DNA of 29,511 bases, taken from positions 1-29,511 of the IMG/VR virus record IMGVR_UViG_3300036832_000824; one strand, 5' to 3'. The DNA is from a virus. Below, piece after piece: positions 3 through 15,227 of the stretch. Position 1 is the first letter of the stretch. Every line of letters begins with the position of its first letter. The position numbers and the translations under genes were made by a program. Under the pieces are notes generated by a model that worked only from the letters and a program-made list of their open reading frames with translations, had not been told where the DNA came from and did not search any database.

Positions 3-2594
3 AATTTTGGTCGAGTTGGTGTTGCCGTCGGCGGCGTTGGTGCGGCTGCGGCTGCGGCGGCTGGGGGCATTTGGTTGCTTGGTCGTCGGCTCGCCGATCA
101 ACAAGTCCAGATGGATCAATTGACGACAAAGCTCGGTGCAAGCGAGCAAGCGATTGTGAGTCTTGAACGGGCATTTTCACGCTTTGGAAAGGGACCGGAA
201 GCCGCGCACAAAGCACTGGAGCAATTGCAAACACTCGTTGAAGATACCCGCAAGGGCGCGGCTGCGGGATACTCTCAAGAAATTTTCAAAAATATCGAGG
301 GTGTTGGGCCGCAGATCGAAGCGGCGATCACTAAAATTTTGGTACGAATACGGGAGGGCAACCTCGGCAAAGAAGAAGGGATGAAGCTCATACTGAGCCA
401 AATCTACGGGGTCCAAACATCGGAGGAAGTAAGACGAAAAATCGCAGATGCCTTGAAAATCCCGTTCGAGGACCTCGAAGGTTTGATGAAGAATTGGCCA
501 AAGGTCATCAAACCTACGGTGCTATCCGAGCCGATGCAGGAGGCGATGCGAAGGCTCAACGATGTAATTCACACGGAGATGGAGAAGATAAGCAACGCTT
601 GGACCGAGGGAATGAACAAACTCGGTCCCGAGGGGATCGAAAGAATAAATGCTGCAATTAAGGAGATGGGCGAAAGCATTCGGGCCTTGGTTCCCGTTAT
701 CGTCGATGAGCTTGGGAGAGCCCTTGGCGATGTAAATACGATCTTCAAAGAGATCAGAGCTTTTTTCGAATGGTGGAATGCAACACCCACGGAAAAATTT
801 AATCAATTGCTTGAAGGGCTAAAGGGTCACTTTACGACGCCGCCGCTTGTGAAGTCTTTGCAACGAGGCGCACAGCAACCTGCGAAGCCGGGTGACGTTG
901 TCGATCCGATGAGCGGCGCGGTGATGGATACGCCGCAAGGCACGCCGCAGCGTTTCGGCGGTGGTGCTGATCTTAGCGGGCTTCGCATCAATCCCCAAAA
1001 TTGGGACAAGATGATGCACGATCCCGCGAATATCGCGTTGGGTCGTTCTCGCATTGAAGATCGGCGCGGCGGCACCGGCGAGCAAGGCGGGCAACCAATC
1101 GTGTTGACTCGTATGGAGGAGTCGCAGCGCGAATCCAAAGATTTCCTACGTGAGATCCGCGACGTGATGACTTGGATTCGTGACCAGGAATTGGCGAAGC
1201 AGGCGAAGGCCGGCACCGGCAACGGCGCGGGACCTCCGAGCCAGCAAGGGCCGCCAAGCGCTGGGACATTTGGCGGAGGCGCTGGCGGTGGTGCCGCTGG
1301 TGGTGTGCCGGGCGCTGCGGGAACACCGGGCGGGCCTGCGGTTGGCGCGCTCTCCGAAGTGCGTCAGCGATTTGCCAAGGAGTTGCAAGACCCGGCCACG
1401 ATGCAATTGCTCATGGCTTCGACGCAAGCCGAAGTCGGCGGTCAGGGAGCGCAGGCACAACAAGCGTATATGGAATCGGTGATGAACCGAGCCGCAGCGA
1501 GAGGCAAATCGCTGCGGGAGACTTTAACGAACGCCAAGTATTATCCGCAGTCAACGATTTCAAAGCTCGGTCGCACCTTTAGCGGTGCGCAATTCAGCAC
1601 TATGCAGCAACAGGCGCAGGCCGTGCTGCAAGGATCGAACGTCTCGAATTTTGCGACCGGCAACGAGTCCGGTGGAGTTCGGTCGGGAGGCGCGCCGGTC
1701 CTTTTTAACCCGCAGACGGGCGAGCGCTTCGTTGGCGAAAATGCGGACCTCGGTTGGATTAGACAGATGCGCGAGCGGGCGTCCTCTGGCGCTCCCGGTG
1801 CCGCTGTTCAAACTCCGGGCGTTGGCGTCGGCGGTGCCCCGCAAATGGGCCAGGGTGATCAGAAAGCGCCCCCAACGAATCTGCTTGAGGCAGCAAAGCA
1901 TGCGGCCGCTATGGGCGGCGGCCCGGCGGTCTATCAATTCATGGCCGCTCACGGTTATCCCAAGGCTGGCAATTGGTGCGGCGAGTTCGCTGCTGCCGTC
2001 GTTCGTTCCGCTGGCGGTACGCCGCCGCGCAATCCCGAGGTCGCGTCGAACTGGCGAAACTTCGGTCAACAGGTCGCAACGCCGCAGCCCGGCGACATTG
2101 CGGTGCGGCGCGGCGTTCGGACGGGCTCGACGGGTTCGCACGTCACTATTGTCGGCGGGGTGCAAGGCGGCACGTTTCAAGGTATTGGCGGCAATCAACG
2201 CGGCGGGATGATCTCGCGATTCAGTACCGGCACATATGACTTTTTCCGCCCCGGCGGCGGCCTCGCTGGCGGCAAGCCGCTAGACGCGGCCGCGATGGCT
2301 GGAGGCATGGGCGGCGGCATGGCCGGCGGCCAACCCGGAGGCCAAGGCGGCCTTGGGGCGGTGTTAGGCGGCCTTGGCGGCGGCGGTGGCGGCATGGGCG
2401 GCGGCGGTGGTGTGAGCGGTCAGGCGACCGTCACCATCAACGTGACGGTGCCCGCAGGCGCGCAGGTGCAGAGCAGCGCAAGCGGCTCTGGATCGTTGGC
2501 GAACCCGACCGTTACGACGAACCGCTCGGGCCAGATGTCTTCGGCGGGCCAGAACGCTAGGACGCAGCCGAACTACTACGGAAACGAATACTGA
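3..2594 (+). CDS. Tail tape measure protein with peptidoglycan hydrolase domains (5' partial)
   Basis: The frame is open to the left edge, so the start lies outside the window; a TTG at 75 is only an internal candidate. The first visible residues are a Gly/Ala-rich hydrophobic stretch, followed by long helical sequence as expected for a tape measure that sets tail length. Counting from codon 75, residues about 450-580 resemble a SleB-type cell-wall hydrolase (AEVGGQG, then MESVMNRAAARG). Residues about 610-730 look like a CHAP/NlpC-P60 (TIGR02594-type) amidase, with GNWCGEFAAAVV giving the candidate nucleophile Cys635 and SHVTIV giving His689. The C-terminus is very Gly-rich. The downstream hub gene starts on its stop codon (TGATG). 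Such domains would open the murein during DNA entry. The tape measure role is inferred from position, length and composition. Confidence 0.8.
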   Translation, partial: NFGRVGVAVGGVGAAAAAAAGGIWLLGRRLADQQVQMDQLTTKLGASEQAIVSLERAFSRFGKGPEAAHKALEQLQTLVEDTRKGAAAGYSQEIFKNIEGVGPQIEAAITKILVRIREGNLGKEEGMKLILSQIYGVQTSEEVRRKIADALKIPFEDLEGLMKNWPKVIKPTVLSEPMQEAMRRLNDVIHTEMEKISNAWTEGMNKLGPEGIERINAAIKEMGESIRALVPVIVDELGRALGDVNTIFKEIRAFFEWWNATPTEKFNQLLEGLKGHFTTPPLVKSLQRGAQQPAKPGDVVDPMSGAVMDTPQGTPQRFGGGADLSGLRINPQNWDKMMHDPANIALGRSRIEDRRGGTGEQGGQPIVLTRMEESQRESKDFLREIRDVMTWIRDQELAKQAKAGTGNGAGPPSQQGPPSAGTFGGGAGGGAAGGVPGAAGTPGGPAVGALSEVRQRFAKELQDPATMQLLMASTQAEVGGQGAQAQQAYMESVMNRAAARGKSLRETLTNAKYYPQSTISKLGRTFSGAQFSTMQQQAQAVLQGSNVSNFATGNESGGVRSGGAPVLFNPQTGERFVGENADLGWIRQMRERASSGAPGAAVQTPGVGVGGAPQMGQGDQKAPPTNLLEAAKHAAAMGGGPAVYQFMAAHGYPKAGNWCGEFAAAVVRSAGGTPPRNPEVASNWRNFGQQVATPQPGDIAVRRGVRTGSTGSHVTIVGGVQGGTFQGIGGNQRGGMISRFSTGTYDFFRPGGGLAGGKPLDAAAMAGGMGGGMAGGQPGGQGGLGAVLGGLGGGGGGMGGGGGVSGQATVTINVTVPAGAQVQSSASGSGSLANPTVTTNRSGQMSSAGQNARTQPNYYGNEY

Positions 2595-3850
2595 TGGCCA
2601 ACGGCAACGGCGCGCCACAGAAAGCCTATTTTCCCTATCTCAATCGCGCCGTTCTGACCGTCAACGGTCAGCCTTATTATGAGTGGGAGAGCGTGCAAGT
2701 CCGTGCTGCGATGTTCGAAAACACGCGCACGTTTCGGTTCACCGCCTCGGAGAAAGAAGTCCCGCCCTCGCGTTCGGCGATGCGGATCAAGCCGGGGGAC
2801 AAATGCACGGTCGAACTCGACGGCTACCTAGCGGTGAACGGCGAGGTCGTGACGCGTCAGGTTTCTTTCAGCGGGACCGAGCACGTCGTTGAGATCCAAG
2901 GGCAGGGCCTTTCCGGTCGCATGTCTGGCGCATCGGTGGTGTCGCAGACCGGCGAGATGAACAATATCGGCCTTGAGAGTTTGGCGAAGCAACTGGGGCA
3001 GAACTTCGGCGTAGGCGTCCAAGGCACTTCGCAATCGAATGAAAAATTCAAACGGGTGTCGGTGAATCCTGGCCAATCTCCGTGGGAGATGCTTGACCAT
3101 CACGCTCGTCAGACCGGCGATGTGTTGAGCGAAAGCCCGGAGGGGAAAATCCAGATCAATGCGCAGGGCGGCGGCGCGTCGGTGATCGAGGGATGGAATA
3201 TCCTCGAAGGTCGCGAGGTAATCCACTCGTTGGTTGCGGTGGGCGGCTCTGGCACTCCTGGCGGGACCGCTCCCGGTTCTGGCGAAGGTTCGGACTTCAC
3301 GTCGATTGGCCAGCGACCGGGAACAGACGACTCGTGGGGTGCTGATGCCAACCGCGTCAATGCTGAAAAGCCGGCGATGACAACGGATTTTAATCAGGGG
3401 TTTAATCCGAAGGTCACTGCGCAAGAAACGCCCGCGTGGTCGCAGGGTCTTGCCGGCAGTCGTTCGCTGATGAATGCGATGCATTCCGATACGCTACAAA
3501 TCTGGGTCAACATCACGTTGCTGACTTGGCAGCGCAGCGGCAAAGCCCCGCCGTCTGGTGGCCTCTGGGAATTGAACGATGAGGTCACCGTGAATTCGCC
3601 GATGCTGATCTTGGAAGGCCAACCACTGAAGCTCAAAGCAGTCACATGGTCGCAAGACAGCACGAGCGGCACGCGCTCTCATATCGAGCTTGTCAACGAT
3701 AGGGCGATGCCGGCCGCCCCGGTTCCGGGCGGGGTCTCGCCTGACACAACTAAGCCGCCGCTCGGCACGCCGCTGCCGCAACAGCCGCCGCAGACAACAC
3801 CGGGCATAGCGTTGCCGCCAGGCGGTAGAACTTGGAGTAGACCTCGATGA
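2594..3850 (+). CDS. Baseplate hub protein, Mu gp44 / P2 gpD-like
   Basis: This 418-residue protein matches the pattern of contractile-tail hub proteins (T4 gp27, P2 gpD, Mu gp44). It has an N-terminal beta domain (VLTVNGQPYYEWESVQV), a polar 'IKPGDKCTVELDG' segment, 'EIQGQGLSGRM', and a second domain with 'SPWEMLDHHARQTGDVLSESPEGKI'. The last 50 residues are a proline-rich tail. The trimeric hub joins the tail tube to the spike and is built around the tape measure C-terminus. It lies between the tape measure gene (one-base overlap) and the spike gene (ATGA overlap), the usual place. The family call is from recognised sequence style and order, not a search. Confidence 0.85.
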   Translation: MANGNGAPQKAYFPYLNRAVLTVNGQPYYEWESVQVRAAMFENTRTFRFTASEKEVPPSRSAMRIKPGDKCTVELDGYLAVNGEVVTRQVSFSGTEHVVEIQGQGLSGRMSGASVVSQTGEMNNIGLESLAKQLGQNFGVGVQGTSQSNEKFKRVSVNPGQSPWEMLDHHARQTGDVLSESPEGKIQINAQGGGASVIEGWNILEGREVIHSLVAVGGSGTPGGTAPGSGEGSDFTSIGQRPGTDDSWGADANRVNAEKPAMTTDFNQGFNPKVTAQETPAWSQGLAGSRSLMNAMHSDTLQIWVNITLLTWQRSGKAPPSGGLWELNDEVTVNSPMLILEGQPLKLKAVTWSQDSTSGTRSHIELVNDRAMPAAPVPGGVSPDTTKPPLGTPLPQQPPQTTPGIALPPGGRTWSRPR

Positions 3851-4794
3851 CGATATACAGCACGGCGAAATGGGCCGCTCGCCAAGCGCAGAGCGGAATC
3901 TCGCGCGCAACCATCCGCGAGGTCGATGACAACCATCTCTGTCAAGAATGCAAATATGCCGACGTGACGCATTCCGAGACGCCAAGCAATTTCGAGATTT
4001 GGCAACCGCTCGGGATTACCAGCGTCTCGATGAAACAAAAGGACGCGCAGCAAGGCCAGCAAGGCCAACAGGGCGGTCAAGGGGGTGGTGATGGTGGCGG
4101 CGGCCAAGGTGGCGGCGGTGATCAGCACTTCAACAAGAACCAGCCGAAGGGCGAAGCCTCCGAAATGGTAATGGTGTATGCCAACGGCCATCGTGCGCAC
4201 CCGATAGGCATGCCGCAGGATCGGCGCTGTCGGCCTTACGACATGGACCCCGGTGAGGGCGGGCTCTACGACTCGCAAGACGGCAAGCAGATGACCTACT
4301 TCCGCAATCGTGGTGACAGCACTGACGGCGTCTACATCGTCGGTTGTGATGCTGATCCGCCAGACCAAGGCAGCGGCGGCGGTGCAGGTGGACAAGCCGG
4401 CGGGCAGCAATCAACGGCGCGCTCGGTCTATATGCGCCACGCCAACAAGAAAAAGCAGTCGCGCAAGCCGCAAAAGCACCAGCAACAGCAAGGTGGTGGC
4501 ACACCGACGCGATATGCCGATGGTAGCCAGCGCTACAAGCACGAGGGCGACAGCATCAACACCGAAGTGCAACTGACCTCGGGCAAGATCAACTTCAACG
4601 ACGGTGGCGGCAACAAGGGATTCTACGATAACGGCAAAAAAGATTGGCTCTATCACGACGGGTCAGGTGCAACGCATTCTATGCGCGCTGACAAAACTCA
4701 CTCGCACATTAAAAACGACGGCGGCCATGTTTGGGTTCAAGGCGCTCCTTTCAAGTCGATGCCTTTCGTGATCAAGCCCGACCCGTGCACATGA
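3847..4794 (+). CDS. Baseplate spike, Mu gp45 / gpV-like
   Basis: The 315-residue product fits the Mu gp45 (baseplate assembly V) family, the trimeric membrane-piercing spike below the hub. The N-terminus (residues 1-65) and residues about 105-175 would form the OB-fold. Residues about 220-300 are a Gly/Asn/Asp-rich beta-helix (YADGSQRYKHEGDS, then INFNDGGGNKGFYDN). The motif His285-Ser-His287 near the tip matches the HxH motif that binds iron in P2 gpV and related spikes. Two low-complexity inserts are odd: a Gln/Gly tract at residues about 68-95 and a Lys/Gln tract at about 202-220. It overlaps the hub gene by ATGA. Confidence 0.85.
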   Translation: MTIYSTAKWAARQAQSGISRATIREVDDNHLCQECKYADVTHSETPSNFEIWQPLGITSVSMKQKDAQQGQQGQQGGQGGGDGGGGQGGGGDQHFNKNQPKGEASEMVMVYANGHRAHPIGMPQDRRCRPYDMDPGEGGLYDSQDGKQMTYFRNRGDSTDGVYIVGCDADPPDQGSGGGAGGQAGGQQSTARSVYMRHANKKKQSRKPQKHQQQQGGGTPTRYADGSQRYKHEGDSINTEVQLTSGKINFNDGGGNKGFYDNGKKDWLYHDGSGATHSMRADKTHSHIKNDGGHVWVQGAPFKSMPFVIKPDPCT

Positions 4795-4795
4795 G

Positions 4796-5740
4796 ATGAA
4801 GTTCTGGGCTTGTCCGCCGAACAACATCGTCACCGTTGACGATGCGCCGATGACGGTCGATCTCAGTGATGTTGCCAAGAACATTTGGTTGGTGGATTGG
4901 TCGGGGAAAGATGGAACGATTTTATACAATGACCGGCTTGGCGTGCGAAACACGTTTAGCGATCCATCACCGTATCTGTTCTTTGTCAATCGATGGATGA
5001 TCGCGGCGCAATTGCTGAATCCGGCTGTGACTCAGAGCCTCCCGACCGAGGCGGTTCCGATCAGTCTCGGACAAGCCAAGGCGGTAAAGTCTGCGTTGGT
5101 CCCGGCTCTTTTCAATTTGAAGCGCCAAGCGCCGATTGCCACCGCCTACGGAACGATTGTTCCGACCGACGAAGTTGTTTCGAACATGCAATCGCAAGCA
5201 TTGTCTGACATCGCGGGCGCTGGCAGTAGTTCGGTTGGCAATCTCAACGACAGCATTGCAGGCGTCGCCGATAGCATGAATGCGACCATCGCGGACTTCA
5301 ATTCAAAGATCGGCACTTTTAACTCAAATGCGAACGCGATAACCACGGCCTTTAATTCAGAAACCGCAACTTTCAATTCCAACCAAAATTACAACGTAAA
5401 TTACATGAACGCCGGCTACGTTGACTCGATCAACAATTCGATGAACTCCGGGACGGCCCCATCGGGCGGCGGCCAAGTTACATTCACTCCGATGCCGCAT
5501 CAGGGGATGCCGGTAAACGCGATGGGTTCGTTGGGATATATGGGCACGTTGGGCGCGATGAATCCAATTCCGAGTCCGTCGGCGGCAGGAGGCGGGGGAT
5601 CGCCGACGTTGCAACAACTCCAACAAGTCATGGGCCGTCGCAACAGCCTCGCCGGTGTACAGGGCGCGCATCTTACGAACATTGCGAATGCGACGAGCGT
5701 TGCGGCGGTCGCCGCCTACGACATCACCGCAGGATGGTAA
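4796..5740 (+). CDS. Phage tail protein with coiled-coil segment, function unknown
   Basis: This protein has 314 residues. The first 75 form a compact domain (WLVDWSGKDGTILYNDR, then PYLFFVNRW) that is common in small tail proteins of contractile phages; I cannot name the family. Residues about 140-205 are a Ser/Asn/Ala-rich helix in which the triplet Phe-Asn-Ser occurs at residues 168, 175, 186 and 193. The 7-11-7 spacing is that of a parallel coiled coil. The C-terminal third is Gly/Pro/Met-rich and then helical. The gene starts one base after the spike stop codon and is followed three bases later by the DNA-circulation gene, so it belongs to the baseplate operon. Confidence 0.7.
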   Translation: MKFWACPPNNIVTVDDAPMTVDLSDVAKNIWLVDWSGKDGTILYNDRLGVRNTFSDPSPYLFFVNRWMIAAQLLNPAVTQSLPTEAVPISLGQAKAVKSALVPALFNLKRQAPIATAYGTIVPTDEVVSNMQSQALSDIAGAGSSSVGNLNDSIAGVADSMNATIADFNSKIGTFNSNANAITTAFNSETATFNSNQNYNVNYMNAGYVDSINNSMNSGTAPSGGGQVTFTPMPHQGMPVNAMGSLGYMGTLGAMNPIPSPSAAGGGGSPTLQQLQQVMGRRNSLAGVQGAHLTNIANATSVAAVAAYDITAGW

Positions 5741-5743
5741 CGC

Positions 5744-6409
5744 ATGCCGATCATACCGTCGCCGCCAAATGCTGGGCCGGTTGTTCTCCGCGAACCGACG
5801 CAGGGGTCAGTCAGGCGTGGCGGATCGTTGAAAGAAGTTTCGCCGGTGCTCTGGCGCTTGCGCATGCGGCAGGCGTCGTTCAAAAGCGCCGCCTTTCACG
5901 TCGAGACGCAAGGCCGTGTTTCGGGTCGGCGCACCGTGGTCCATGAGTACCCGAAACTCGATACCCCTTATGCCGAAGATCTTGGAAGACACGCTGTTCG
6001 CTATCAGATCACCGGCTACGTGATCCAGCGCTGGCAACCCAAGCAGGGCAATCCGAACTACGGCAACATGCTCTGGAATTACGACATGGCGCGCGACCGA
6101 TTGATCGCGGCGCTCGAAGACCTCGGACCTGGCCGCCTGGTCGATCCCTACAACAACCGCATCGGCCCGCAAGTATTCCAATGCGAACGTTATCAGGTGA
6201 CCGAGAGCCGCGAGCGCGGCGGCTATGCGCAATTCGAGATGGCGTTCGTTGAGGCTGGCGGGGATTCGGCCTTCACGTTCATCGGTGTCGATACGGTATC
6301 CGAAATCACCGGCGTGGCCAACAGTTCGATAAGCGCGGTCGCCGACATCCTCAACACCGAGATGACTGCACTCAATCGACCGGGTGCTCCGCTGCAAGTG
6401 CCTAAGTAG
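5744..6409 (+). CDS. DNA-circulation protein N-terminal domain (Mu gp43 / DNA_circ_N-like), half-length
   Basis: Residues about 35-180 match the DNA_circ_N domain of Mu gp43 relatives: 'RRTVVHEYPKLDTPYAEDLG', 'YQITGYVIQRW', 'RDRLIAALEDLGPGRLVDPY', 'ESRERGGYAQFEMAFVEAGG'. In Mu-like phages this domain heads a protein of roughly 450-500 residues; here the frame stops at 221 residues. A block resembling the missing C-terminal half is found in the gene at 9812-11095, with four genes in between. The protein is a baseplate/tail component despite its historical name. In Mu, gp43 follows the tape measure; here it comes after the hub and spike, so the order is rearranged. Confidence 0.85.
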   Translation: MPIIPSPPNAGPVVLREPTQGSVRRGGSLKEVSPVLWRLRMRQASFKSAAFHVETQGRVSGRRTVVHEYPKLDTPYAEDLGRHAVRYQITGYVIQRWQPKQGNPNYGNMLWNYDMARDRLIAALEDLGPGRLVDPYNNRIGPQVFQCERYQVTESRERGGYAQFEMAFVEAGGDSAFTFIGVDTVSEITGVANSSISAVADILNTEMTALNRPGAPLQVPK

Positions 6410-6451
6410 CTCGTCTCTCTCCCCCGCAAATCGCAACACACAGTGGAAAGT

Positions 6452-6475
6452 CTCGCGTGCGCGCGAGCAAGGAGG
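6452..6475 (+). promoter_or_regulatory. GC hairpin directly before a strong ribosome binding site
   Basis: CTCGCG (6452-6457) and CGCGAG (6462-6467) form a perfect 6-bp stem with a TGCG loop, three bases before GGAGG at 6471-6475 and eleven before the ATG at 6483. This is the largest gap (73 bases) between genes in the first half of the tail operon. It may stabilise the mRNA or keep the site open; its function is inferred. Confidence 0.4.
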
Positions 6476-6482
6476 TTTTGCT

Positions 6483-6863
6483 ATGCCTGGAAAGTGCAAC
6501 GCATGGGTTCTCAACATGGGCCTGACGCAGCTACAGTTGCTTGCCGATAAAATTTTCATCTGTAGTCAAGAGCCGGTTGATTACGCGTCTGCAACGACGA
6601 CGTATGCTCTCGGTAACATGGCCTTCGGGGCGGGCCTCGCGCTCACCGGCCCGACCGCGCGCACGCCCAACGGTAGCAAGGTGACGACGGTTGCCGTCAC
6701 GAACGGCGCGGTCACTGGCACGGGGAATGCAACCCGATGGGCTATAGTCGATAGTGTTAACTCAAGGCTTTTAGTCGATAACGACCTGGCGTCAGCACAA
6801 GGTGTAACTGCCGGCAACGTCTGGTCCTTGCCAGCCTTCGATTTCGGGATACCTGGTTCTTAA
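6483..6863 (+). CDS. Small beta-rich phage structural protein
   Basis: The start at ATG 6483 is set by a near-consensus GGAGG seven bases upstream; an upstream in-frame start at 6384 would overlap the previous gene and lacks a site. The 126-residue product has a short helix (LTQLQLLADKIFIC), then 'SQEPVDYASATTTYALGN', and a beta-rich remainder ending 'NVWSLPAFDFGIPGS'. Small proteins of this pattern sit just before fibre genes in some alphaproteobacterial phages. I take it as a virion or fibre-attachment component, possibly abundant given the strong ribosome site. No enzymatic motif is seen. Confidence 0.65.
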   Translation: MPGKCNAWVLNMGLTQLQLLADKIFICSQEPVDYASATTTYALGNMAFGAGLALTGPTARTPNGSKVTTVAVTNGAVTGTGNATRWAIVDSVNSRLLVDNDLASAQGVTAGNVWSLPAFDFGIPGS

Positions 6864-6887
6864 ACGCGCATCAAAGGCTATTAGCTG

Positions 6888-7850
6888 ATGACCGCGAAAG
6901 CGCTCAAGCACAAGTTTGTCTCGGCGATTGCGGATATAGCTGATGCGACGCTGATCCGGCCATCGAATTGGAATGACGATCACGATCTCTGGCTCGGGAT
7001 GCGAACCGTCAGTGCTACGTCGGACGTGATCACCAACGCCGATCATCTTACTTTCATCCGCTACACCTATTCCGCTGCAATAGCTGTCAGCATTTCCGCG
7101 CCATCCGGTTCTAACATGCCCGCCGGATGGACGACAAAACTTAAAAACACGGCCTCGTCATCGCTGACGCTTACTGGAACAGGTTGCACGATCAACGGTG
7201 CCGCCTCGATTGTGCTGACTCTCGGTGAGAGTTTACAACTTTTCAGTGACGGCACGACCGACTATGGCGGCATTGTCAGCTTGTCGCCAAATTCGCCATC
7301 GATCACTGGCAGCGCTCCCAGTCTCAAATTGCTCAACACGCTTATCGGCAGCGGCGGTCAATATCTGACTGACACGACGAGCATCACGTCGGCTTACGAC
7401 AGCTACGAATTCGAATTCGTCAATCTCGTGCCTAGCACAAACTCTGTCGGGCTTTATGCGCAGGTGATGATCGGAGGCTCGTGGATCACCACCGGCTATA
7501 ACGCGATGGTGATGGTTGGCTACTCTGTCGGCTTTGGGAGCACCATTGGAGCAGGGTCGGAAGTTTCGACCACGGGTTTCCTATTGACGAGCGCGGTCGC
7601 TTCCGCGGTGTCGAACGCAGCGAATCTTGGTGTCTGCGGGATGGCTCGGTTGCCAGGACCGAACAGCGGTGCTGACAAATTTATGAACGGGAACATTGCT
7701 TATCGAGGCACTAATGCCGCGCTGATCACATGCGGCGCGTTCGGCGGACGCTTGCCGAATGCGTCTCCGATCACTGGCATTCGATTCTTTTTTAGCAGCG
7801 GCAATATCAACGCCGGAACCGTTCGCGTCTACGGACGAAAGACGAGTTGA
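6888..7850 (+). CDS. Tail fibre-like protein, tandem copy 1
   Basis: This is the first of three adjacent paralogues. The 320 residues contain a conserved N-terminus (KHKFVSAIADIADATLIRPSNWNDDHDLWLGMR), a conserved beta domain up to about residue 140 (SGSNMPAGWTTKLKN, then LTLTGTGCTINGA, then GESLQLFSDG), and a linker. A variable jelly-roll-like C-terminal domain follows, opening 'ITSAYDSYEFEFVNLVP' and closing 'GTVRVYGRKTS'. The opening and closing motifs are typical of phage fibre head domains. The role in host surface binding is inferred. It shares a 76-bp exact block and a 47-bp exact block with copy 3, and a 32-bp block with copy 2. Confidence 0.75.
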   Translation: MTAKALKHKFVSAIADIADATLIRPSNWNDDHDLWLGMRTVSATSDVITNADHLTFIRYTYSAAIAVSISAPSGSNMPAGWTTKLKNTASSSLTLTGTGCTINGAASIVLTLGESLQLFSDGTTDYGGIVSLSPNSPSITGSAPSLKLLNTLIGSGGQYLTDTTSITSAYDSYEFEFVNLVPSTNSVGLYAQVMIGGSWITTGYNAMVMVGYSVGFGSTIGAGSEVSTTGFLLTSAVASAVSNAANLGVCGMARLPGPNSGADKFMNGNIAYRGTNAALITCGAFGGRLPNASPITGIRFFFSSGNINAGTVRVYGRKTS

Positions 7851-8834
7851 ATGACCGTCAAAAGCCTCAAACATAAATTTGTCAGCGCGGTTGCTGACGG
7901 AACCGATGCGACGGTTTGGCGACCCTCAAACTGGAATGACGATCACGATTGCTGGCTCGGAATGCGAGCAGCGACCGGCACGTCCGATACAATTGCGAAT
8001 AGCGATCATCTTACTTTCATTCGTTACACGAACACCGGCGCGGTTGCAGTCAGCATTCCGGCCCCGAGCGGCGGAAACATGCCGTCGGGATGGACGACGC
8101 AACTCAAGAACGTTAGTTCGTCCGCGCTGACGCTTACCGGCACGGCCTGTACGATCAACGGCGCACCTTCGATCACGCTGACACAGGGCGAAAGCTTGCA
8201 GTTGTTCAGCGACGGGAGTTCTGATTATAGCGGCACCGTCAGCTTGTCGCCAAACTCACCGTCGATCAAAGGCGGGACGCCTGGCCTCAAATTGCTCAAC
8301 ACGATTACAATCCCTGCTGGCGGCGGCGGTCCTGGCATAGTGCGAGATACGACGAGCATCACCGCAGCTTACGACAGCTACGAATTCGAGCTAGTGAACT
8401 TCATCCCAAGCAACAACGGCGTCGGGCTTTATGCGCAGGTGATGATCGGAGGGGCATGGCTTAACTCCGGTTACAGTTCGATGGCGATGTGCGGGTATAA
8501 CGCTGGCGGCGGCGGCAGCAGCCTCCCGGTAGGCGTTGACACCGGGACGTTCGGTTTTTTGCTCAGCGGTGCCGGTTACGCCAACCCCGTTGGAAATGCT
8601 AGCCTTTATGGTGCCAACGGACTGGTCCGGCTGCATGGGGCAAACAGCAGCGTCAATAACAAGTTTCTAAGCGGAACTATCGCTTTTTATCAAACGGGGG
8701 CCTTAGCGATCTCGTCCGGTGTGGTTGGTGGTTTTATGTTAAACACTAACCCGATTACCGGCATTCAATTTCTGTTTGGAACAGGCAACATTTGGCAAGC
8801 ACTGGTCAGGGTATATGGACGAAAAACGTCATGA
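7851..8834 (+). CDS. Tail fibre-like protein, tandem copy 2
   Basis: The ATG follows the stop of copy 1 without a gap. The 327 residues have the same plan as copy 1: 'KHKFVSAVADGTDATVWRPS' N-terminus, shared beta domain with 'SLQLFSDGSSDYSGTVSL', 'AYDSYEFELVNFIP', and the closing 'RVYGRKTS'. It differs most from the others between about residues 180 and 310, where it has Gly-rich loops (NAGGGGSSLPVG). It shares 32 bp exactly with copy 1 (8421-8452 against 7446-7477) but lacks the 76-bp block shared by copies 1 and 3. A surface-binding function is inferred from domain style only. Confidence 0.75.
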   Translation: MTVKSLKHKFVSAVADGTDATVWRPSNWNDDHDCWLGMRAATGTSDTIANSDHLTFIRYTNTGAVAVSIPAPSGGNMPSGWTTQLKNVSSSALTLTGTACTINGAPSITLTQGESLQLFSDGSSDYSGTVSLSPNSPSIKGGTPGLKLLNTITIPAGGGGPGIVRDTTSITAAYDSYEFELVNFIPSNNGVGLYAQVMIGGAWLNSGYSSMAMCGYNAGGGGSSLPVGVDTGTFGFLLSGAGYANPVGNASLYGANGLVRLHGANSSVNNKFLSGTIAFYQTGALAISSGVVGGFMLNTNPITGIQFLFGTGNIWQALVRVYGRKTS

Positions 8835-9808
8835 CGGTAAAAAGTCTTAGACATAGGCTTTCGTCGGCGGTCGTGGATGGCGGCGACAGTACGTTGGTGC
8901 GGCCATCGAATTGGAATGACGATCACGATCTCTGGCTCGGGATGCGAACCGTCAGTGCTACGTCGGACGTGATCAGCAACACCGATCATCTGACCTTCGT
9001 TCGCTTTACGAACGCGGCAGCGGTTGCGGTTAGCATTGCAGCACCATCCGGCAGCAATATGCCGACCGGATGGGTGACGAGGCTCAAGAACGTCAATTCA
9101 TCGGCGCTCACGCTGACAGGGACCGGCTGCACCATCAACGGCGCGTCATCGATTGTTCTTGCGCAGGGCGAGAGCCTTCAACTGTTCAGCGATGGCACGA
9201 CCGACTATGGCGGCGTTGTTGGCTTGTCTCCGAATTCGCCGTCGATCAAGAGCATTGCTCCTGACATCAAATTGCTCAACACGCTCGTCGCCAGCAATCA
9301 GCAATATCTCACTGACACGACGAGCATCACGTCGGCTTACGACAGCTACGAATTCGAGTTTCTCAATCTTGTGCCCGCTGCCGCTGCGACCTTGTACATG
9401 CAACTCTTTAGCGCTGCTAGCGGCTGGATCAGCGGCAACAACGCCATGTCGTTCTGCTGTTGGGGGACTGGAAACGCGGCCAGCAATCAAATGGCAGTTG
9501 ACAGTTCTAATGGATATTTGATTTTGAGCGGCGCTGCGAATTCTTACCAAGTGGCCGCTTCCCCCAATGGTGGCGTCTGCGGAATGGTTGTGCTGCACGG
9601 GCCGAACAGCGGCTCTCGTAAGTATATTAGTGGTCTGACCGCATCTGTGCCCGGCGGCGGCACTGCCGGCATTCTAATCTCTGATGTCGGTGCCTACAGC
9701 ACTGCTGATCCGGTTACCGCCGTGCGATTCACTTTCATCAACACTGCCGGCACTTCTCAAAACATCACCACCGGAACCGTTCGCGTCTACGGACGCAAGA
9801 CGAGTTAA
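8831..9808 (+). CDS. Tail fibre-like protein, tandem copy 3
   Basis: The start is taken at ATG 8831, which overlaps the stop of copy 2 as ATGA and gives the same N-terminus as its paralogues (MTVKSLRHRLSSAVVDG). An upstream in-frame start at 8792 would add residues absent from the other copies. The product has 325 residues. DNA at 8900-8975 is identical to 6957-7032 in copy 1, and 9311-9357 to 7368-7414. The middle of the C-terminal domain diverges (Ala/Ser-rich, 'FCCWGTGNAASNQ') while 'GTVRVYGRKTS' is restored at the end. This pattern suggests recombination between copies with diversification of one domain. Confidence 0.75.
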   Translation: MTVKSLRHRLSSAVVDGGDSTLVRPSNWNDDHDLWLGMRTVSATSDVISNTDHLTFVRFTNAAAVAVSIAAPSGSNMPTGWVTRLKNVNSSALTLTGTGCTINGASSIVLAQGESLQLFSDGTTDYGGVVGLSPNSPSIKSIAPDIKLLNTLVASNQQYLTDTTSITSAYDSYEFEFLNLVPAAAATLYMQLFSAASGWISGNNAMSFCCWGTGNAASNQMAVDSSNGYLILSGAANSYQVAASPNGGVCGMVVLHGPNSGSRKYISGLTASVPGGGTAGILISDVGAYSTADPVTAVRFTFINTAGTSQNITTGTVRVYGRKTS

Positions 9809-9811
9809 TCG

Positions 9812-11095
9812 ATGTCTGGCGCGCCGGCATTTCAGAGTACCGCCAGCCAACCTAACGCCTTTCAAAGCGGCGTGCAGGTTGTTGCCGGCAACTATTTCCT
9901 CGGCTCACCTGCGTTCGCCACGCCGATTCTCGGTTCCAAGTACGTTTTCCACGCTGCCGCCTATTCGCTTGCTTCGCCGAGCTTCGCGACACCGACGCTC
10001 GCTACCGCATCAGGCATCGCGCAACTGCATGCAAATCCGTATTCGGTTGGCTCGCCAAGTTTCGCGATACCATCGCTTCGCATTTACAAGATATTTGCCG
10101 TAAACGCGTACTCGCTCGGCTCGCCGGCTTTTGCCTTTCCAGCGTTTCATCAGAACCACCATATTTTCACGAACTCGATGAGTTTGTCGGGGCTGTCGTT
10201 CACGACGCCGCAACTGCTTAAAAATTATCAACTGACTGCTTCTGCCGCCTATTGGCTCGCGTCACCCGATATTCACTCCGACATTGTCATCGAAGTCAAT
10301 CGAACGCTTACGGCTCAAGCATTTGGTTACACACTCGATCATCCGCGCTTCGGCTTCCCGCGTCTGACAGTGACGATCATTCAAGCGCCGTGGCCGCGAA
10401 CCTATTTCTCGCAGGCCGAGGAAGCCGGCGCGATGCTAGGCAATCTACTCAACTACATCCTCATGAGTTTGCCGCCGGTGCAGACCGACGCTCGAGACCT
10501 CTGTCGAAGACTATGCACGACGCTGCGCGACAACGCTTCCGCTGCTATCCGTGGCAACACGCTCGGCACGCAATTGCAGGCGATCTATAACGCCGCTGAC
10601 GCCGCTGGCGCGTCCTATGGCGGCATCGAGGCGGCCCGGCAATATCTGATGAGCCAGGTCGCCAGCACTTCGGCTTTCACGCAAATCGTCTTTCGAAGCG
10701 CGCTCGTCATGACGCTCGCCGAGGAGTCGATGATCATCTCGCGCTTTCCGTTCGCGACGCAGGCCGAAGTTCAAAATATGATCTATCACGTCCGCGATAT
10801 GTTCGACGCGGCCAAGGCGCTCGGCATCGATGAGGTCGATATTGTCCTTTACCAGACGCTCAACGCGTTGGGCGGCGCGGTGATGAACCATCTCGCTACC
10901 ACGGAGCTTAAATTGCCGCGCTTCATGGCCTATCAAACGGGCATGCCGATGCCGTCGCTCTATTTGGCGCAGCGCATCTATGCCGACCCATCGAGGTCTG
11001 ACGAGCTAGAGGCTGAGAACGGCGTGATCCATCCGGCGTTCATGCCGAGAACTCTGCGCGTGCTGTCCGCGCCGCCCGTTGGACCGGCCCTCTAA
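9812..11095 (+). CDS. Repeat protein fused to DNA-circulation C-terminal domain (Mu gp43 C-half-like)
   Basis: The 427 residues divide in two. Residues about 25-195 hold six or seven imperfect repeats of 23-26 residues around 'Y-S-L-G-S-P-x-F-A-T-P'. Residues about 200-427 are helical and end with a signature I associate with the C-terminus of Mu gp43/DNA-circulation proteins: 'PSLYLAQRIYADPSRSDELE' followed by 'NGVIHPAFMPRTLRVLS'. The matching N-terminal domain is encoded separately at 5744-6409. The gene starts three bases after fibre copy 3. It is most likely a baseplate protein completing the split family member, with repeats that may carry or replace fibre contacts. The split is inferred from motif recognition. 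Confidence 0.7.
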   Translation: MSGAPAFQSTASQPNAFQSGVQVVAGNYFLGSPAFATPILGSKYVFHAAAYSLASPSFATPTLATASGIAQLHANPYSVGSPSFAIPSLRIYKIFAVNAYSLGSPAFAFPAFHQNHHIFTNSMSLSGLSFTTPQLLKNYQLTASAAYWLASPDIHSDIVIEVNRTLTAQAFGYTLDHPRFGFPRLTVTIIQAPWPRTYFSQAEEAGAMLGNLLNYILMSLPPVQTDARDLCRRLCTTLRDNASAAIRGNTLGTQLQAIYNAADAAGASYGGIEAARQYLMSQVASTSAFTQIVFRSALVMTLAEESMIISRFPFATQAEVQNMIYHVRDMFDAAKALGIDEVDIVLYQTLNALGGAVMNHLATTELKLPRFMAYQTGMPMPSLYLAQRIYADPSRSDELEAENGVIHPAFMPRTLRVLSAPPVGPAL

Positions 11096-11110: not shown

Positions 11111-11638
11111 ATGGCAGACGTTCGGATCGTTTCCAGCGCCTCGCTGCGCGAGACCGTTGCCGATTGGCTCTTGCTCAAGACCGGCAATCTCGATCAGCGT
11201 CAAGAACTGGCGAACTTCGTCAAGGTCGCGCTGATGACCGATAAGCTCGCCGACACGGACGAGATCCGGCCCGATCCAGACAACGATGACCGGCGCGGAT
11301 GGTGGGGCGATATGGATGCTGGCACGATCTGGCGGGGATGGGATATCGGGACAAAGAATTGGTTACTCGAGCGCGCGAAGGTGTCCGACGCCTATGCTTG
11401 GGAAGGCGATACCGTTTACCGCGCCGAGAACTACACGCGGGAAGCCGTCACCCCGCTCGTTCAACTGCGCATGTGCAGCGCTGTCGATGTAAAAGCCGAG
11501 CGCGTCGGCCAAGAGCGCATCGATGTGCGCGTGATCATATATCGCGGGCCATCCGCTGAGGTCGAGCTTGTCTTTCAAGACCTCTGGGCCGCCATCCCGA
11601 CCGAGCCGATCCTCTCGCCCTATCGCTGGTCAACCTGA
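11111..11638 (+). CDS. Baseplate protein, Mu gp46-like
   Basis: The 175-residue product fits the phage gp46 family (a small baseplate wedge component, counterpart of P2 gpW/T4 gp25). The hallmark segments are a Trp/Gly/Asp-rich loop (RRGWWGDMDAG), 'DIGTKNWLLERAKV', and a C-terminal 'VDVKAERVGQERIDVRVIIYRG'. An AAGGA ribosome site lies just before the ATG. The stop overlaps the start of the gp47-like gene (TGATG), the same gene order as in Mu. Confidence 0.85.
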   Translation: MADVRIVSSASLRETVADWLLLKTGNLDQRQELANFVKVALMTDKLADTDEIRPDPDNDDRRGWWGDMDAGTIWRGWDIGTKNWLLERAKVSDAYAWEGDTVYRAENYTREAVTPLVQLRMCSAVDVKAERVGQERIDVRVIIYRGPSAEVELVFQDLWAAIPTEPILSPYRWST

Positions 11639-12747
11639 TGCCTTGGATAACTCCCACGCTTTTGCAAGTGCGACAGATGGTGAGGGATGACATCACCACA
11701 TCGCTCGCCGGCGCGGCTGTTGCCGGTAATACTGTTCTAAGGGTAATGGCCGATGCGATGGCGGGGCTCGCACGGCTTTGTCTCAAGTATTTAGATTGGT
11801 TAGCTTTAATGCTAATGCCAGATACTGCGACCGATACCTGGCTTTCGCGCCATGGGGTTATATGGTTAGTTAACGCGGACGGTTCGCTTGGACGAAAAGG
11901 GGCGTCATACGCGAGCGGAACCGTGGGGTTTTCCGGCACGCCTGGCATATCTATTCCCGATGGTTTCGGGCTTGTTGCGCCGAGCGGTGATACCTATGAG
12001 ACGCTCGAATTTCTAACGCTGCCAGATTCAGTCAATCAACCGGCCGAGGTCGCGGTCAAGGCGCTCAATCCTGGCGCGTCCGGCAATCAACCGCAGGGAA
12101 GCTTCATCGCTCCGACCACGCCCATGTCCGGGGTGAGCGGCGACGTGCTTGTCATCGATTTGCGCGGCGGCTTCGATCAGGAAACCGACGAAGCGCTGCG
12201 CGCGCGGATTCTCGCTCGCATACGACAACCACCGATGGGCGGGGACGCGGACGACTACTGGGAATGGGCAATGGCGATCCCTTCGGTCACAAGGGTGTTT
12301 GTGGCCGCCCGCGAGCTTGGCATGGGAACGGTAACCGTCCGTTTCATGGTGGATGCACTACGCGCCGACACCGGCGGCTTCCCGACCATGGACGACATCA
12401 ACGTGGTGGCTGGCTATCTCGACCAAAAAAGGCCCGTCGCGGTGCGCGACTTTTTTGTGATGTCGCCTGTCCCCGAGCCCATCGACTTCAATCTGGTGCT
12501 TCGGTACGACTCGATGACGTTACGGGCGCAGGTCGCGCAATCGGTCACCGCAATGATCACCGAGAAGGCTATGTGCGCGCACACCGTCAACGGTCAACTC
12601 GTGGCTGGCACGACGATCCTAGCGAGTTGGGTTGCCGAGGCGATCAACCGCGTCACGCAAGATTTCGAGTTAACGATGGACGACCATGCAATGCCTCATA
12701 ATGGAGCTTTGGCTGTTTTGGGAACGATTAGCTATCCGGTGCCATGA
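11638..12747 (+). CDS. Baseplate J-like protein, Mu gp47-like
   Basis: This 369-residue protein is a clear baseplate J/gp47 family member, the large wedge protein that joins the hub to the fibres. It has 'RDDITTSLAGA' and 'LRVMADAMAGLARLCLKYLDWLALMLMPDTATDTWLSRHG' at the N-terminus. The family's usual 'ETDEALRARILARI' and 'PPMGGDADDYWEWAMAIPSVTRVFV' motifs lie in the middle. DNA around 11730-11880 is more AT-rich than its surroundings. Its stop codon forms an ATGA overlap with a homing endonuclease gene instead of with the gp48-like gene expected next. Confidence 0.92.
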   Translation: MPWITPTLLQVRQMVRDDITTSLAGAAVAGNTVLRVMADAMAGLARLCLKYLDWLALMLMPDTATDTWLSRHGVIWLVNADGSLGRKGASYASGTVGFSGTPGISIPDGFGLVAPSGDTYETLEFLTLPDSVNQPAEVAVKALNPGASGNQPQGSFIAPTTPMSGVSGDVLVIDLRGGFDQETDEALRARILARIRQPPMGGDADDYWEWAMAIPSVTRVFVAARELGMGTVTVRFMVDALRADTGGFPTMDDINVVAGYLDQKRPVAVRDFFVMSPVPEPIDFNLVLRYDSMTLRAQVAQSVTAMITEKAMCAHTVNGQLVAGTTILASWVAEAINRVTQDFELTMDDHAMPHNGALAVLGTISYPVP

Positions 12748-13367
12748 ACAACGACGCTTATACATATTGGATCAAAGTTGGCGGGATCATCCGCTACGTC
12801 GGCAAAGGACGCGGCAATCGATGTTTTCGGCACGAACAAATTGCACGCAGTTTGAATGAAGGGAAAAAAGTCAGAGCAACGCCTTTTCAGAAACGGCTCG
12901 CGCAAGCGATGAGTGAAAGACAATCGATCTGCGTCGAAATTTTTGCCTTCGGATTGACAGACGCAGAAGCTTTTGAACGAGAGCAAATCGAAATTGCGAT
13001 CCGTCGTGCTGACTTGTGGAACATCCTCGAAGGCGGCGAGGGAATGACATCTACCGAAGCGCACGCAGTTTGGCTCGATCCGGCAAAAAGAAAAAAGCGC
13101 GCGGCCAGCGCACGCGCTCGTTACACCGAAAATCCTGAATATAGAGACGGAGTCTCAAACCGTTTACGGGCTCAAGCACTTGATGCGGCACGCGCTCGAT
13201 GGGGCAACGCTCAAAACAGGCAAGAGATGTCAAAACGAATGCTCGCTGTATGGGCTGATCCAGAATACAGGGAGAAGCACATTGCAGCCGCGCGGATTCG
13301 TTGCTCCGATCCAAAAGTCAGAGAGGCGCTGACCGCTCGCTCGCGGGCATACAGAGCACGCACATGA
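12744..13367 (+). CDS. Free-standing GIY-YIG homing endonuclease 1
   Basis: The N-terminal 95 residues form a GIY-YIG nuclease: 'YTYWIKVGGIIRYVGKGRG' with the catalytic Arg in 'RCFRH', a Glu in 'AFEREQIEI' and the closing Asn in 'LWNIL'. The remaining half is basic and repeats a short unit, Trp-x-Asp-Pro-x-x-Arg with variations (WLDPAKRKK, ENPEYRD, WADPEYREK), resembling NUMOD-type DNA-binding repeats. It lies between gp47-like and gp48-like genes that are normally adjacent, and overlaps both as ATGA. It therefore appears to be a mobile gene inserted at a coupling junction and still translated with the operon. It is related to the gene at 14598. Confidence 0.85.
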   Translation: MNNDAYTYWIKVGGIIRYVGKGRGNRCFRHEQIARSLNEGKKVRATPFQKRLAQAMSERQSICVEIFAFGLTDAEAFEREQIEIAIRRADLWNILEGGEGMTSTEAHAVWLDPAKRKKRAASARARYTENPEYRDGVSNRLRAQALDAARARWGNAQNRQEMSKRMLAVWADPEYREKHIAAARIRCSDPKVREALTARSRAYRART

Positions 13368-14281
13368 GCAGCCCCAGCGTAGTGCAGCGCGACGCGAGCT
13401 TGCCGCCGTTCGATCCTATTATTCCGCAACCCCCGCAGGCCCCGACACAAGTCACGCCGCTCTATGCGCCAATCACGCCGCCGTTGCCGCACGACCAGCA
13501 TCTTCGCCGAGGTCAAGACGAGTATTGGTGGGCACTCAGTGCGCTACTACCGCAGGGCATCGCGTGGCCGCGAGAACCAGACACGGTGCTGCAAAAGGTT
13601 GTTCGCGGTCTCGCCGGCATCATGGGATGGTTCGACGGTCGCGCCGCCGATCTGCTCGAGCGTGAGAGCGATCCGCGTACCACGGTCGAGATGCTCGATA
13701 GCTGGGAGCGTGCTTTTGGATTACCAGATCCTTGTTGGTATCCGCACGAATGGACGGTCGGCGAGCGCCAAACAATCCTCGTGCAACGCATGACAATCCT
13801 CGGCTCGCAGTCGCGCGATTTCTTCATCAACGACGTTGCTGCCTTTCTCGGTTACGGGTCGGTCTCGATCCGCGAATATCGCCCGTTCATGGCGGGGTTG
13901 GATCGTGCTGGCGACAATCGCCAGTATTTTTCCGATGGCTCGCTCGGACTGTGGCCCGCGCAGATCGGGCCGCCAACCATGCGCTTCGCGTGGACGATGC
14001 ACGTTCCGACGACGCGTCTCACCTGGTTCCGTGCTGGCAAGGGGCGTTCGGGAACAGATGCGCATCTATTTTTTCGTCACGCCGAAGACCTCGAGTGCGT
14101 CGTTCGAAGGTGGGCACCTGCGCACACCGTCGTCCTATTCGATTACAGCGGCGTACTGCCCTACGGCGATCCGTATGCCGGGACCGGCGAGGTCTACGAC
14201 GGCATGATTCCAGCCATGCTCTACACGACGCCGGACACGCTCTATACGCCGCCACCGTACGTCCCGCCGGAACAGCCATGA
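13364..14281 (+). CDS. Baseplate/tail protein, Mu gp48-like (DUF2313/YmfQ)
   Basis: The start at ATG 13364 overlaps the preceding stop as ATGA; a start at 13301 would lie inside the endonuclease gene. The 305-residue protein begins with a proline-rich stretch and then has the gp48/YmfQ pattern: 'LSALLPQGIAWPREPDTVLQKVVRGLAGIMGWFDGRAADLLERESDPRTTVEMLDSWERAFGLPD', here quoted only to locate residues about 60-125 by their ends. Next come a helical 'ERQTILVQRMTILGSQSRDF' and a C-terminal domain closing around 'VVRRWAPAHTVVLFDYSGV'. It is a wedge component linking the baseplate to fibres, like P2 gpI. Confidence 0.85.
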   Translation: MSSPSVVQRDASLPPFDPIIPQPPQAPTQVTPLYAPITPPLPHDQHLRRGQDEYWWALSALLPQGIAWPREPDTVLQKVVRGLAGIMGWFDGRAADLLERESDPRTTVEMLDSWERAFGLPDPCWYPHEWTVGERQTILVQRMTILGSQSRDFFINDVAAFLGYGSVSIREYRPFMAGLDRAGDNRQYFSDGSLGLWPAQIGPPTMRFAWTMHVPTTRLTWFRAGKGRSGTDAHLFFRHAEDLECVVRRWAPAHTVVLFDYSGVLPYGDPYAGTGEVYDGMIPAMLYTTPDTLYTPPPYVPPEQP

Positions 14282-14601
14282 CCGATCTAAGCAATCCAGC
14301 ACCCATCAAAGGTCAAACGTGGCCGAGCTTCCCCTCGAGTTGGTATCAGGACGCGACACCTGACCGTCCGTTCTTTATCCCCGAACCACCAGCGCCACCG
14401 GAGTGGCTCAATCCGCCGATCTATCAGCCGCCCGCACAGGTCGCGCCGCCTTACGGGGGAACGAACGTCTACATCTTGATGGCGGTTTCGTACGGATTGG
14501 ATTCTCTGATCTTCTCGCCGCCGCCGGCGCTAACGACGAGCACCTATTACGCACTCGGAGCGCCGAGCTTCGCAACGCCCACGTTGACGACACATCCATG
14601 A
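14278..14601 (+). CDS. Short proline-rich tail protein with LGxPSFATP repeat, possibly truncated
   Basis: The 107-residue product starts by ATGA overlap with the gp48-like gene. It is Pro-rich (PFFIPEPPAPPEWLNPPIYQPP). Its last 45 residues contain one and a half copies of the same repeat as the protein at 9812-11095, ending 'YYALGAPSFATPTLTTHP'. It stops exactly where endonuclease 2 begins. A single partial repeat at the very end suggests that a longer array was cut by the endonuclease insertion, although this may also be its natural length. No function is assigned beyond a tail or fibre-connector role suggested by position. Confidence 0.6.
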   Translation: MTDLSNPAPIKGQTWPSFPSSWYQDATPDRPFFIPEPPAPPEWLNPPIYQPPAQVAPPYGGTNVYILMAVSYGLDSLIFSPPPALTTSTYYALGAPSFATPTLTTHP

Positions 14602-15227
14602 GTTATGTCTACGCAATCATTGTAGACGAAATCGTTAGATACATAGGCAAAGGCTCTGGGCGTCGCGCAGTACGGCATGTGCAGAAGATGCACCAAATTT
14701 TGCGCGCACGCGCAGCCGGTGATGTCGTGCACGCGACGCATCTTCACAATCGAATGGCAAAGGCATGGCGCAACGGATCGACCATTGAAATCGAAATTCT
14801 GCAAGATGGCCTCACGGACGAACATGCGTTTTTGAAAGAGATTGAAATCATCGCATCATTTCCAGAAAGGCAGCTATGGAATAAGTCGCCTGGCGGCGAC
14901 AAGCCACCGAAGGCTGTCAAACGAAGCGCTGAATTTCGAGCAAGAGTAAAAGCATCGAATATCGAAAGATGGAAAGACCCGGAGTTGCGAGCGCGCCAAT
15001 CAGAACAAAAGAAAGTGCATTGGCTTAATCCAGCGTACAGAGAAAAAGTTCACGGTCCACAACGTGGAAGCAAATCTCCGTCAAGGTCAGCAAAAGCAAA
15101 AGAGCGTTGGACTAATCCAGACTTTAGAAAAAAGATGGATCAGATTCTCAATGATCCGTCTCGCAAGCAACAACAAAGTGATGCCGCCCGGCGCGGATGG
15201 GAAGTCCGTCGCGCCAAAGCAAAATAG
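14598..15227 (+). CDS. Free-standing GIY-YIG homing endonuclease 2
   Basis: ATG 14598 overlaps the preceding stop as ATGA; longer starts at 14403 would cover the previous gene. The 209-residue product has a GIY-YIG domain ('YVYAIIVDEIVRYIGKGSG', Arg in 'RRAVRH', Glu in 'FLKEIEII', Asn in 'LWNKS'). A basic tail with repeated 'W-x-[DN]-P-x-[YFL]-R' units follows (WKDPELRAR, WLNPAYREK, WTNPDFRKK). The order of motifs matches endonuclease 1 throughout, so the two are paralogues of one mobile family, though clearly diverged. The catalytic residues appear intact in both. Its 3' end may overlap the start of the next fibre gene. Confidence 0.85.
   Translation: MSYVYAIIVDEIVRYIGKGSGRRAVRHVQKMHQILRARAAGDVVHATHLHNRMAKAWRNGSTIEIEILQDGLTDEHAFLKEIEIIASFPERQLWNKSPGGDKPPKAVKRSAEFRARVKASNIERWKDPELRARQSEQKKVHWLNPAYREKVHGPQRGSKSPSRSAKAKERWTNPDFRKKMDQILNDPSRKQQQSDAARRGWEVRRAKAK

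Follow-up and report, generated by a model that had tools for sequence, protein, structure and literature searches.

We analyzed a linear virus record of 29,511 bases (hereafter the window), which carries no end repeats and represents an incomplete genome. As presented in Table 1, a Mu-type contractile-tail gene row occupies the left half of the window on the plus strand, with more fibre-like genes and lysis genes downstream of gp48. The likely start codons of the small cassette gene and of the third fibre-like gene were corrected, to 6483 and 8831, respectively. The near-end part of the tape measure protein matches a family of baseplate hub and tail lysozyme proteins (PHROG 1259, E 5e-10). 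In addition, two GIY-YIG/homing-endonuclease-like genes were observed exactly at baseplate gene junctions with ATGA overlaps, one between gp47 and gp48 and the other after gp48 (14598-15227), the first being absent from most relatives.

Table 1. Features of the tail gene row, with the basis of each assignment.
Feature	Coordinates	Strand	Basis and remarks
Tape measure	3-2594	+	
gp44 (hub)	2594-3850	+	Pfam, PHROG 177; precedes gp43N here, follows gp43 in Mu
gp45-like spike	3847-4794	+	Pfam Gp45 E 8.5e-5 (below cut-off), position; precedes gp43N
Gene without name	4796-5740	+	
gp43N, tube domain of baseplate centre piece	5744-6409	+	Pfam, PHROG 184, fold match
DNA_circ_N domain within gp43N	5864-6151	+	Pfam
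Small conserved cassette gene, 126 aa	6483-6863	+	Profile found in cassette loci only
Fibre-like paralogue 1	6888-7850	+	Shared N-domain, ~140 aa
Fibre-like paralogue 2	7851-8834	+	Shared N-domain
Fibre-like paralogue 3	8831-9808	+	Shared N-domain; ATGA overlap with paralogue 2
gp43C gene: repeat array and helical half of centre piece	9812-11095	+	PHROG 184; hhalign
Repeat array in gp43C, residues ~21-197	9872-10402	+	Unit profile, regular spacing
Helical bundle with predicted LysM-like end, residues 198-419	10403-11068	+	AlphaFold model, fold matches
gp46 (baseplate wedge 1), expected gp43C contact	11111-11638	+	Pfam GP46 E 1e-19
gp47 (baseplate wedge 2), tree marker	11638-12747	+	Pfam Baseplate_J E 2e-44
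Homing-endonuclease-like gene	12744-13367	+	
gp48	13364-14281	+	

A first-pass annotation of this DNA had assigned the two ends of a Mu gp43-like protein to separate genes, named here gp43N and gp43C, and both assignments were confirmed. The 221-residue gp43N carries a DNA_circ_N domain at residues 41-136 (Pfam, E 4e-20) and aligns to the N-terminal part of PHROG 184 (positions 5-155 of 411, E 2.5e-32). Residues 281-414 of gp43C (427 residues) align to positions 271-403 of this same family (E 1.6e-17), and no match of this C-terminal part to an unrelated family was found. These two proteins are the only ones in the window to match PHROG 184. Using a reference alignment of five fused gp43 proteins (phiNP, SfV, DVM-2008, phiAP1 and yong2; 447 columns), profile-profile comparison placed gp43N on columns 17-142 (probability 99.8, E 1e-27) and gp43C on columns 325-447 of 447 (probability 98.8, E 1e-16).

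When the PDB was searched by sequence, no useful match was obtained for gp43C or its array. Structure models built separately for each half are weak, with a mean pLDDT of 58 for gp43N and 52 for gp43C. For both halves, the sole fold matches at E ≤ 0.001 were nevertheless the same three centre pieces: Milano (8fqc, 3e-6), Mu (9ki1, 2e-5) and 7-7-1 (9rku, 2.5e-5) for gp43N, and 7-7-1 (1e-4), Milano (2e-4) and Mu (5e-4) for gp43C. In the gp43C model, residues 1-198 are disordered (pLDDT of about 25 in the array) and the chain is helical from residue 198 on, the domain being modelled as eight helices followed by a beta-alpha-alpha-beta end. From this predicted order of elements and the published Mu and Milano structures (PMC11915804; PMC10811340), the end of gp43C is probably LysM-like. 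The "helical C-terminal signature" first noticed in this gene was attributed to the right family, but it corresponds to the very last, predicted LysM-like part of the domain. Taken together, the profile and fold matches show, at the sequence level, that a Mu gp43-type centre piece is encoded here in two parts: gp43N is its tube-initiator half, and its helical half corresponds to residues ~198-419 of gp43C. The pair possesses the N-terminal tube-like domain of the PHROG 184 family and its C-terminal helical bundle, the LysM-like module of the latter being deduced from element order. By contrast, the two domains are not on one polypeptide but in two genes 3.4 kb apart, and these lie after gp45 and before gp46 instead of directly between the tape measure gene and gp44.

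The content of the interval was also as first described, with a small gene and three fibre paralogues between the halves and a repeat array fused to gp43C. The three paralogues are 74-77% identical over their first 140 residues and 40-55% identical over the remainder. This combination of a conserved N part and a variable C part is that expected of fibres, and some members carry tail-fibre domains: in a homologue from one relative (L050), the cassette N-domain is joined to the tail-fibre PHROGs 863, 454 and 6202, while the copies of the window match only families of unknown function. The small gene is preceded by a ribosome-binding site (AAGGAGG) and shares 75-83% identity with the copies of relatives. 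In gp43C, six to seven repeats of ~23 residues fill residues ~20-195. Neither the array, the small gene nor the fibre genes of the window match a named family in Pfam or NCBIfam. Units of the gp43C-type repeat were also seen at two other places: the short gene after gp48 in the window (14278-14601) ends in two of them, and in a relative (L004) they stand at the C-terminus of gp48 itself.

To survey relatives, viral contigs were scanned, the queries being individual proteins as well as alignments built for each half. About 100 loci were recovered, and many of these are near-copies. Single-protein scans with gp43C found nothing, and alignments were required. Four states were distinguished among these loci, in proportions that should not be read as population frequencies since the search patterns were drawn from split members. 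In state A, gp43 is fused and follows the tape measure gene (SfV, phiNP, DVM-2008, phiAP1 and yong2); the fused form that the first-pass annotation had suggested looking for is thus present in five phages. In state B, two abutting genes occupy the position of state A (phage phiKM1 and others), so that the fused relatives and state B share the placement between the tape measure gene and gp44. In state C, the abutting pair is relocated between gp45 and gp46. In state D, the position is C-like and the halves are separated by 1.36-3.4 kb, in which the small gene is accompanied by one to three fibre genes; this state is represented by 13 distinct contig lineages with both ends covered, the window included. 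Abutting split genes without a fibre module were found at 41 C-type and 15 B-type loci; when the loci that include gp47 are clustered at 95% identity of this protein, they fall into 15 C-type and 7 B-type groups.

The cassette and the array were confined to state D. The fibre N-domain profile matched 18 of the 23 D loci and the small-gene profile 15 of 23, the D loci without a match starting inside or after the cassette region, and neither profile matched any of the 41 C, 15 B or 5 A loci. The array is present on gp43C of D loci, with a length of ~190-245 residues in the clade of the window, and it has no match at E below 0.01 among the proteins encoded at A, B and C loci. A different addition was observed in a locus outside the cassette clade (L107), where a 700-residue protein (L107:745-2847) consists of repeated beta-rich domains fused N-terminal to the gp43C domain. 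This extension spans ~480 residues, and the repeats seen by eye fall short of significance. In the same locus, an ORF for a multi-pass membrane protein, iron-permease-like by eye (L107:2777-3475), lies between gp43C and gp46. A second, full-length gp43 copy elsewhere in the genome was dropped as a candidate, since none was found either in the window, as far as this incomplete genome extends, or in 14 related contigs of greater length (21-69 kb; states B, C and D), each of which has a single N half and either one C half or none.

We then determined the order of events from trees. In the gp47 tree, the D loci form one clade (100/100); a single change accounts for the cassette, while the split needs two, of which one falls in phiKM1. 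The inner branch order, open with gp47 only, is resolved by a six-gene tree (quick method, SH-aLRT support only), in which the fused phages and phiKM1 fall outside, B is basal in the split clade and C and D group together (100). In addition, L019, which is split and possesses neither cassette nor array, is the sister of D (98). Because the sister of the cassette clade is itself split but cassette-free, the split predates the cassette. So the gene was split first, relocated second, and took up the cassette third, and the trees support a split in phiKM1 independent of that in the main split clade. Of the two origins initially envisaged, the breakage of an intact gp43 by insertion of a fibre module, both halves being kept, is consistent with the flanking of the cassette by the halves in the window. 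It was nevertheless dropped as highly improbable in view of the six-gene tree and of the many relatives with abutting genes and no cassette, the cassette clade being nested among split loci with L019 as its sister. The other origin, a family that tolerates a two-chain form, is supported both by the abutting split loci and by the independent split in phiKM1.

Selection on the two halves was then evaluated. The dN/dS ratio was 0.06-0.21 in gp43N; in gp43C it was 0.11-0.19 over the domain and 0.14-0.32 over the array, compared to 0.04-0.11 for gp47, all of them rough values because dS is near saturation in most pairs. This substitution pattern shows both halves to be under purifying selection. 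Since the record is fragmentary and includes an integrase gene, it may originate from a prophage, and the halves could be functionless remnants in a dying one. With dN/dS well below 1 in both halves, all tail genes open and the arrangement kept across diverged lineages, such a decay is scarcely credible and was dropped.

Another explanation concerns the cassette-less forms, in which a ribosomal frameshift could join the two genes, leaving only the cassette clade truly two-chain. The abutting genes do, for the most part, overlap by a few bases in shifted frames. Nevertheless, the junction types vary (ATGA, GTGA or TAATG overlaps, or an in-frame stop in L061), and none of the slippery heptamers scanned for was found at the junctions of abutting pairs. 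Moreover, frameshifting is inapplicable to the window, with 3.4 kb between the halves. This explanation, which we consider very unlikely, was dropped on account of the in-frame stop and of the absence of the heptamers scanned for.

The centre piece of a contractile tail connects the tube, which moves, with the helical "glue" by which the baseplate wedges are kept together. Mu gp43 forms a hexamer: its tube-like domain initiates the tail tube, and a flexible loop connects this domain to a helix-rich one located between the wedges. The corner between the two gp43 domains is occupied by gp46, and the fibres dock on gp48 (PMC11915804). By profile and fold, both halves in the window belong to the family of Mu gp43 (DNA circularisation protein N, the tube initiator; 9ki1), and the neighbours gp44 to gp48 are those of Mu. 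Mu gp43 is, unlike the pair in the window, a single chain without repeat array; its fibres are encoded elsewhere, and the gene of its fused relatives directly follows the tape measure gene. Milano gp25 (8fqc) and 7-7-1 gp114 (9rku), the best fold matches of both halves, show the domain order of our pair (Tube, Helical and, in Milano, LysM), but as a single chain; in Milano, the linker between the Tube and Helical domains (129-139) is not resolved (PMC10811340) and is thought to be intact. The R2 pyocin centre piece (the "ripcord", PA0626), taken with PA0627, has the same set of modules. There, the LysM module is a separate protein, PA0627, while Tube and Helical are in one chain that is described as critical for assembly in the work cited in PMC10811340. 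In the window it is conversely the Tube-Helical link that is cut, and the LysM-like end remains with the Helical domain.

Another related case is found in Komagataeibacter phage phiKM1 (LC644974), where PhiKM1_540 and PhiKM1_550 are adjacent N- and C-half genes, both named as N-terminus in the public annotation. This pair follows the tape measure gene, has neither cassette nor array, and results from a split independent of that in the window. Induced particles of the source strain are contractile-tailed, and the phage DNA was sequenced from the particle fraction (PMC8566455). Known from genes and particle DNA, phiKM1 suggests that a split centre piece can assemble.

On these grounds, we consider it quite probable that the window encodes a functional two-chain baseplate centre piece of the Mu gp43/Milano gp25 type, split before the arrival of the cassette, with a role for the N-terminal addition as the weaker part of this proposal. 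By analogy with the Mu and Milano structures, six copies of gp43N would assemble into the first ring beneath the tail tube, and gp43C, also in six copies, would sit between neighbouring wedges (gp46, gp47 and gp48) and hold them together. The two proteins would be held to each other by contacts alone, with no covalent link, and the split point falls at or beside the flexible linker of Mu and Milano. As a counterpoint, the criticality attributed to the pyocin Tube-Helical chain, as relayed in PMC10811340, would predict a harmful split. The same source gives the view that the pyocin tube pushes the glue out as one chain. Because this link is reported as critical in the pyocin, a two-chain form is surprising and testable: the chain is cut naturally in a whole phage clade and, separately, in phiKM1, which raises the question of whether the covalent link is required or whether contacts are enough.

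The weaker part of the proposal concerns the array. The free N-terminus of gp43C could lengthen without disturbing the tube ring, and in the clade of the window gp43C would have gained the array along with the small protein and between one and three fibres, all encoded in one gene row. The array would most likely reach towards the baseplate rim and help to hold extra fibres, and the L107 extension would be a second case of a part added to gp43C. Co-occurrence with the cassette suggests that the array may hold the cassette fibres; as array and cassette arose once, their joint presence counts as one event and does not amount to a statistical association. Fibres may be displayed at the split point, as the first-pass annotation had imagined; in favour of this stand the joint occurrence of the array with the small gene and the fibres, and the L107 extension. 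Alternatively, the split could be functional and the gap a mere tolerated landing site, with fibres docking on gp48 as they do in Mu (PMC11915804) and an array unrelated to them. The similar repeats at the gp48 C-terminus in L004 and in the small gene after gp48 in the window fit this alternative, as does the single origin of array and cassette, which leaves no independent replicate to link them. On the other hand, array, small gene and fibres occur together in the cassette clade and never apart, and L107, outside this clade, carries its beta-rich extension on gp43C. We regard the landing-site alternative as possible, though not the more probable one. Returning to the two-chain centre piece, its furthest extension would make the wedge-joining half a separate protein that holds its own host-binding fibres via the N-terminal array, so that additional receptor-binding parts would be tied to the baseplate-locking piece and contact with the receptor could bear directly on the contraction lock; we consider this rather unlikely.

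In the open-licence literature searched, we found no description of a split between Tube and Helical domains or of a fibre cassette between them. The parts themselves are of known kinds, and the phiKM1 gene pair is already in the public record. With surviving intermediates from fused to split, moved and cassette-bearing loci, a core machine part can be followed as it becomes a site for new modules.

Scans of genome collections gave no match, and hence no bacterial host was identified. A lone gp43N gene, 42% identical, was observed on the Bradyrhizobium ottawaense plasmid pBoOM27 (L110:11980-12716), followed by a short ORF with a 4-base overlap and lying among insertion sequences. This gene is likely a prophage remnant and provides a hint of the host group.
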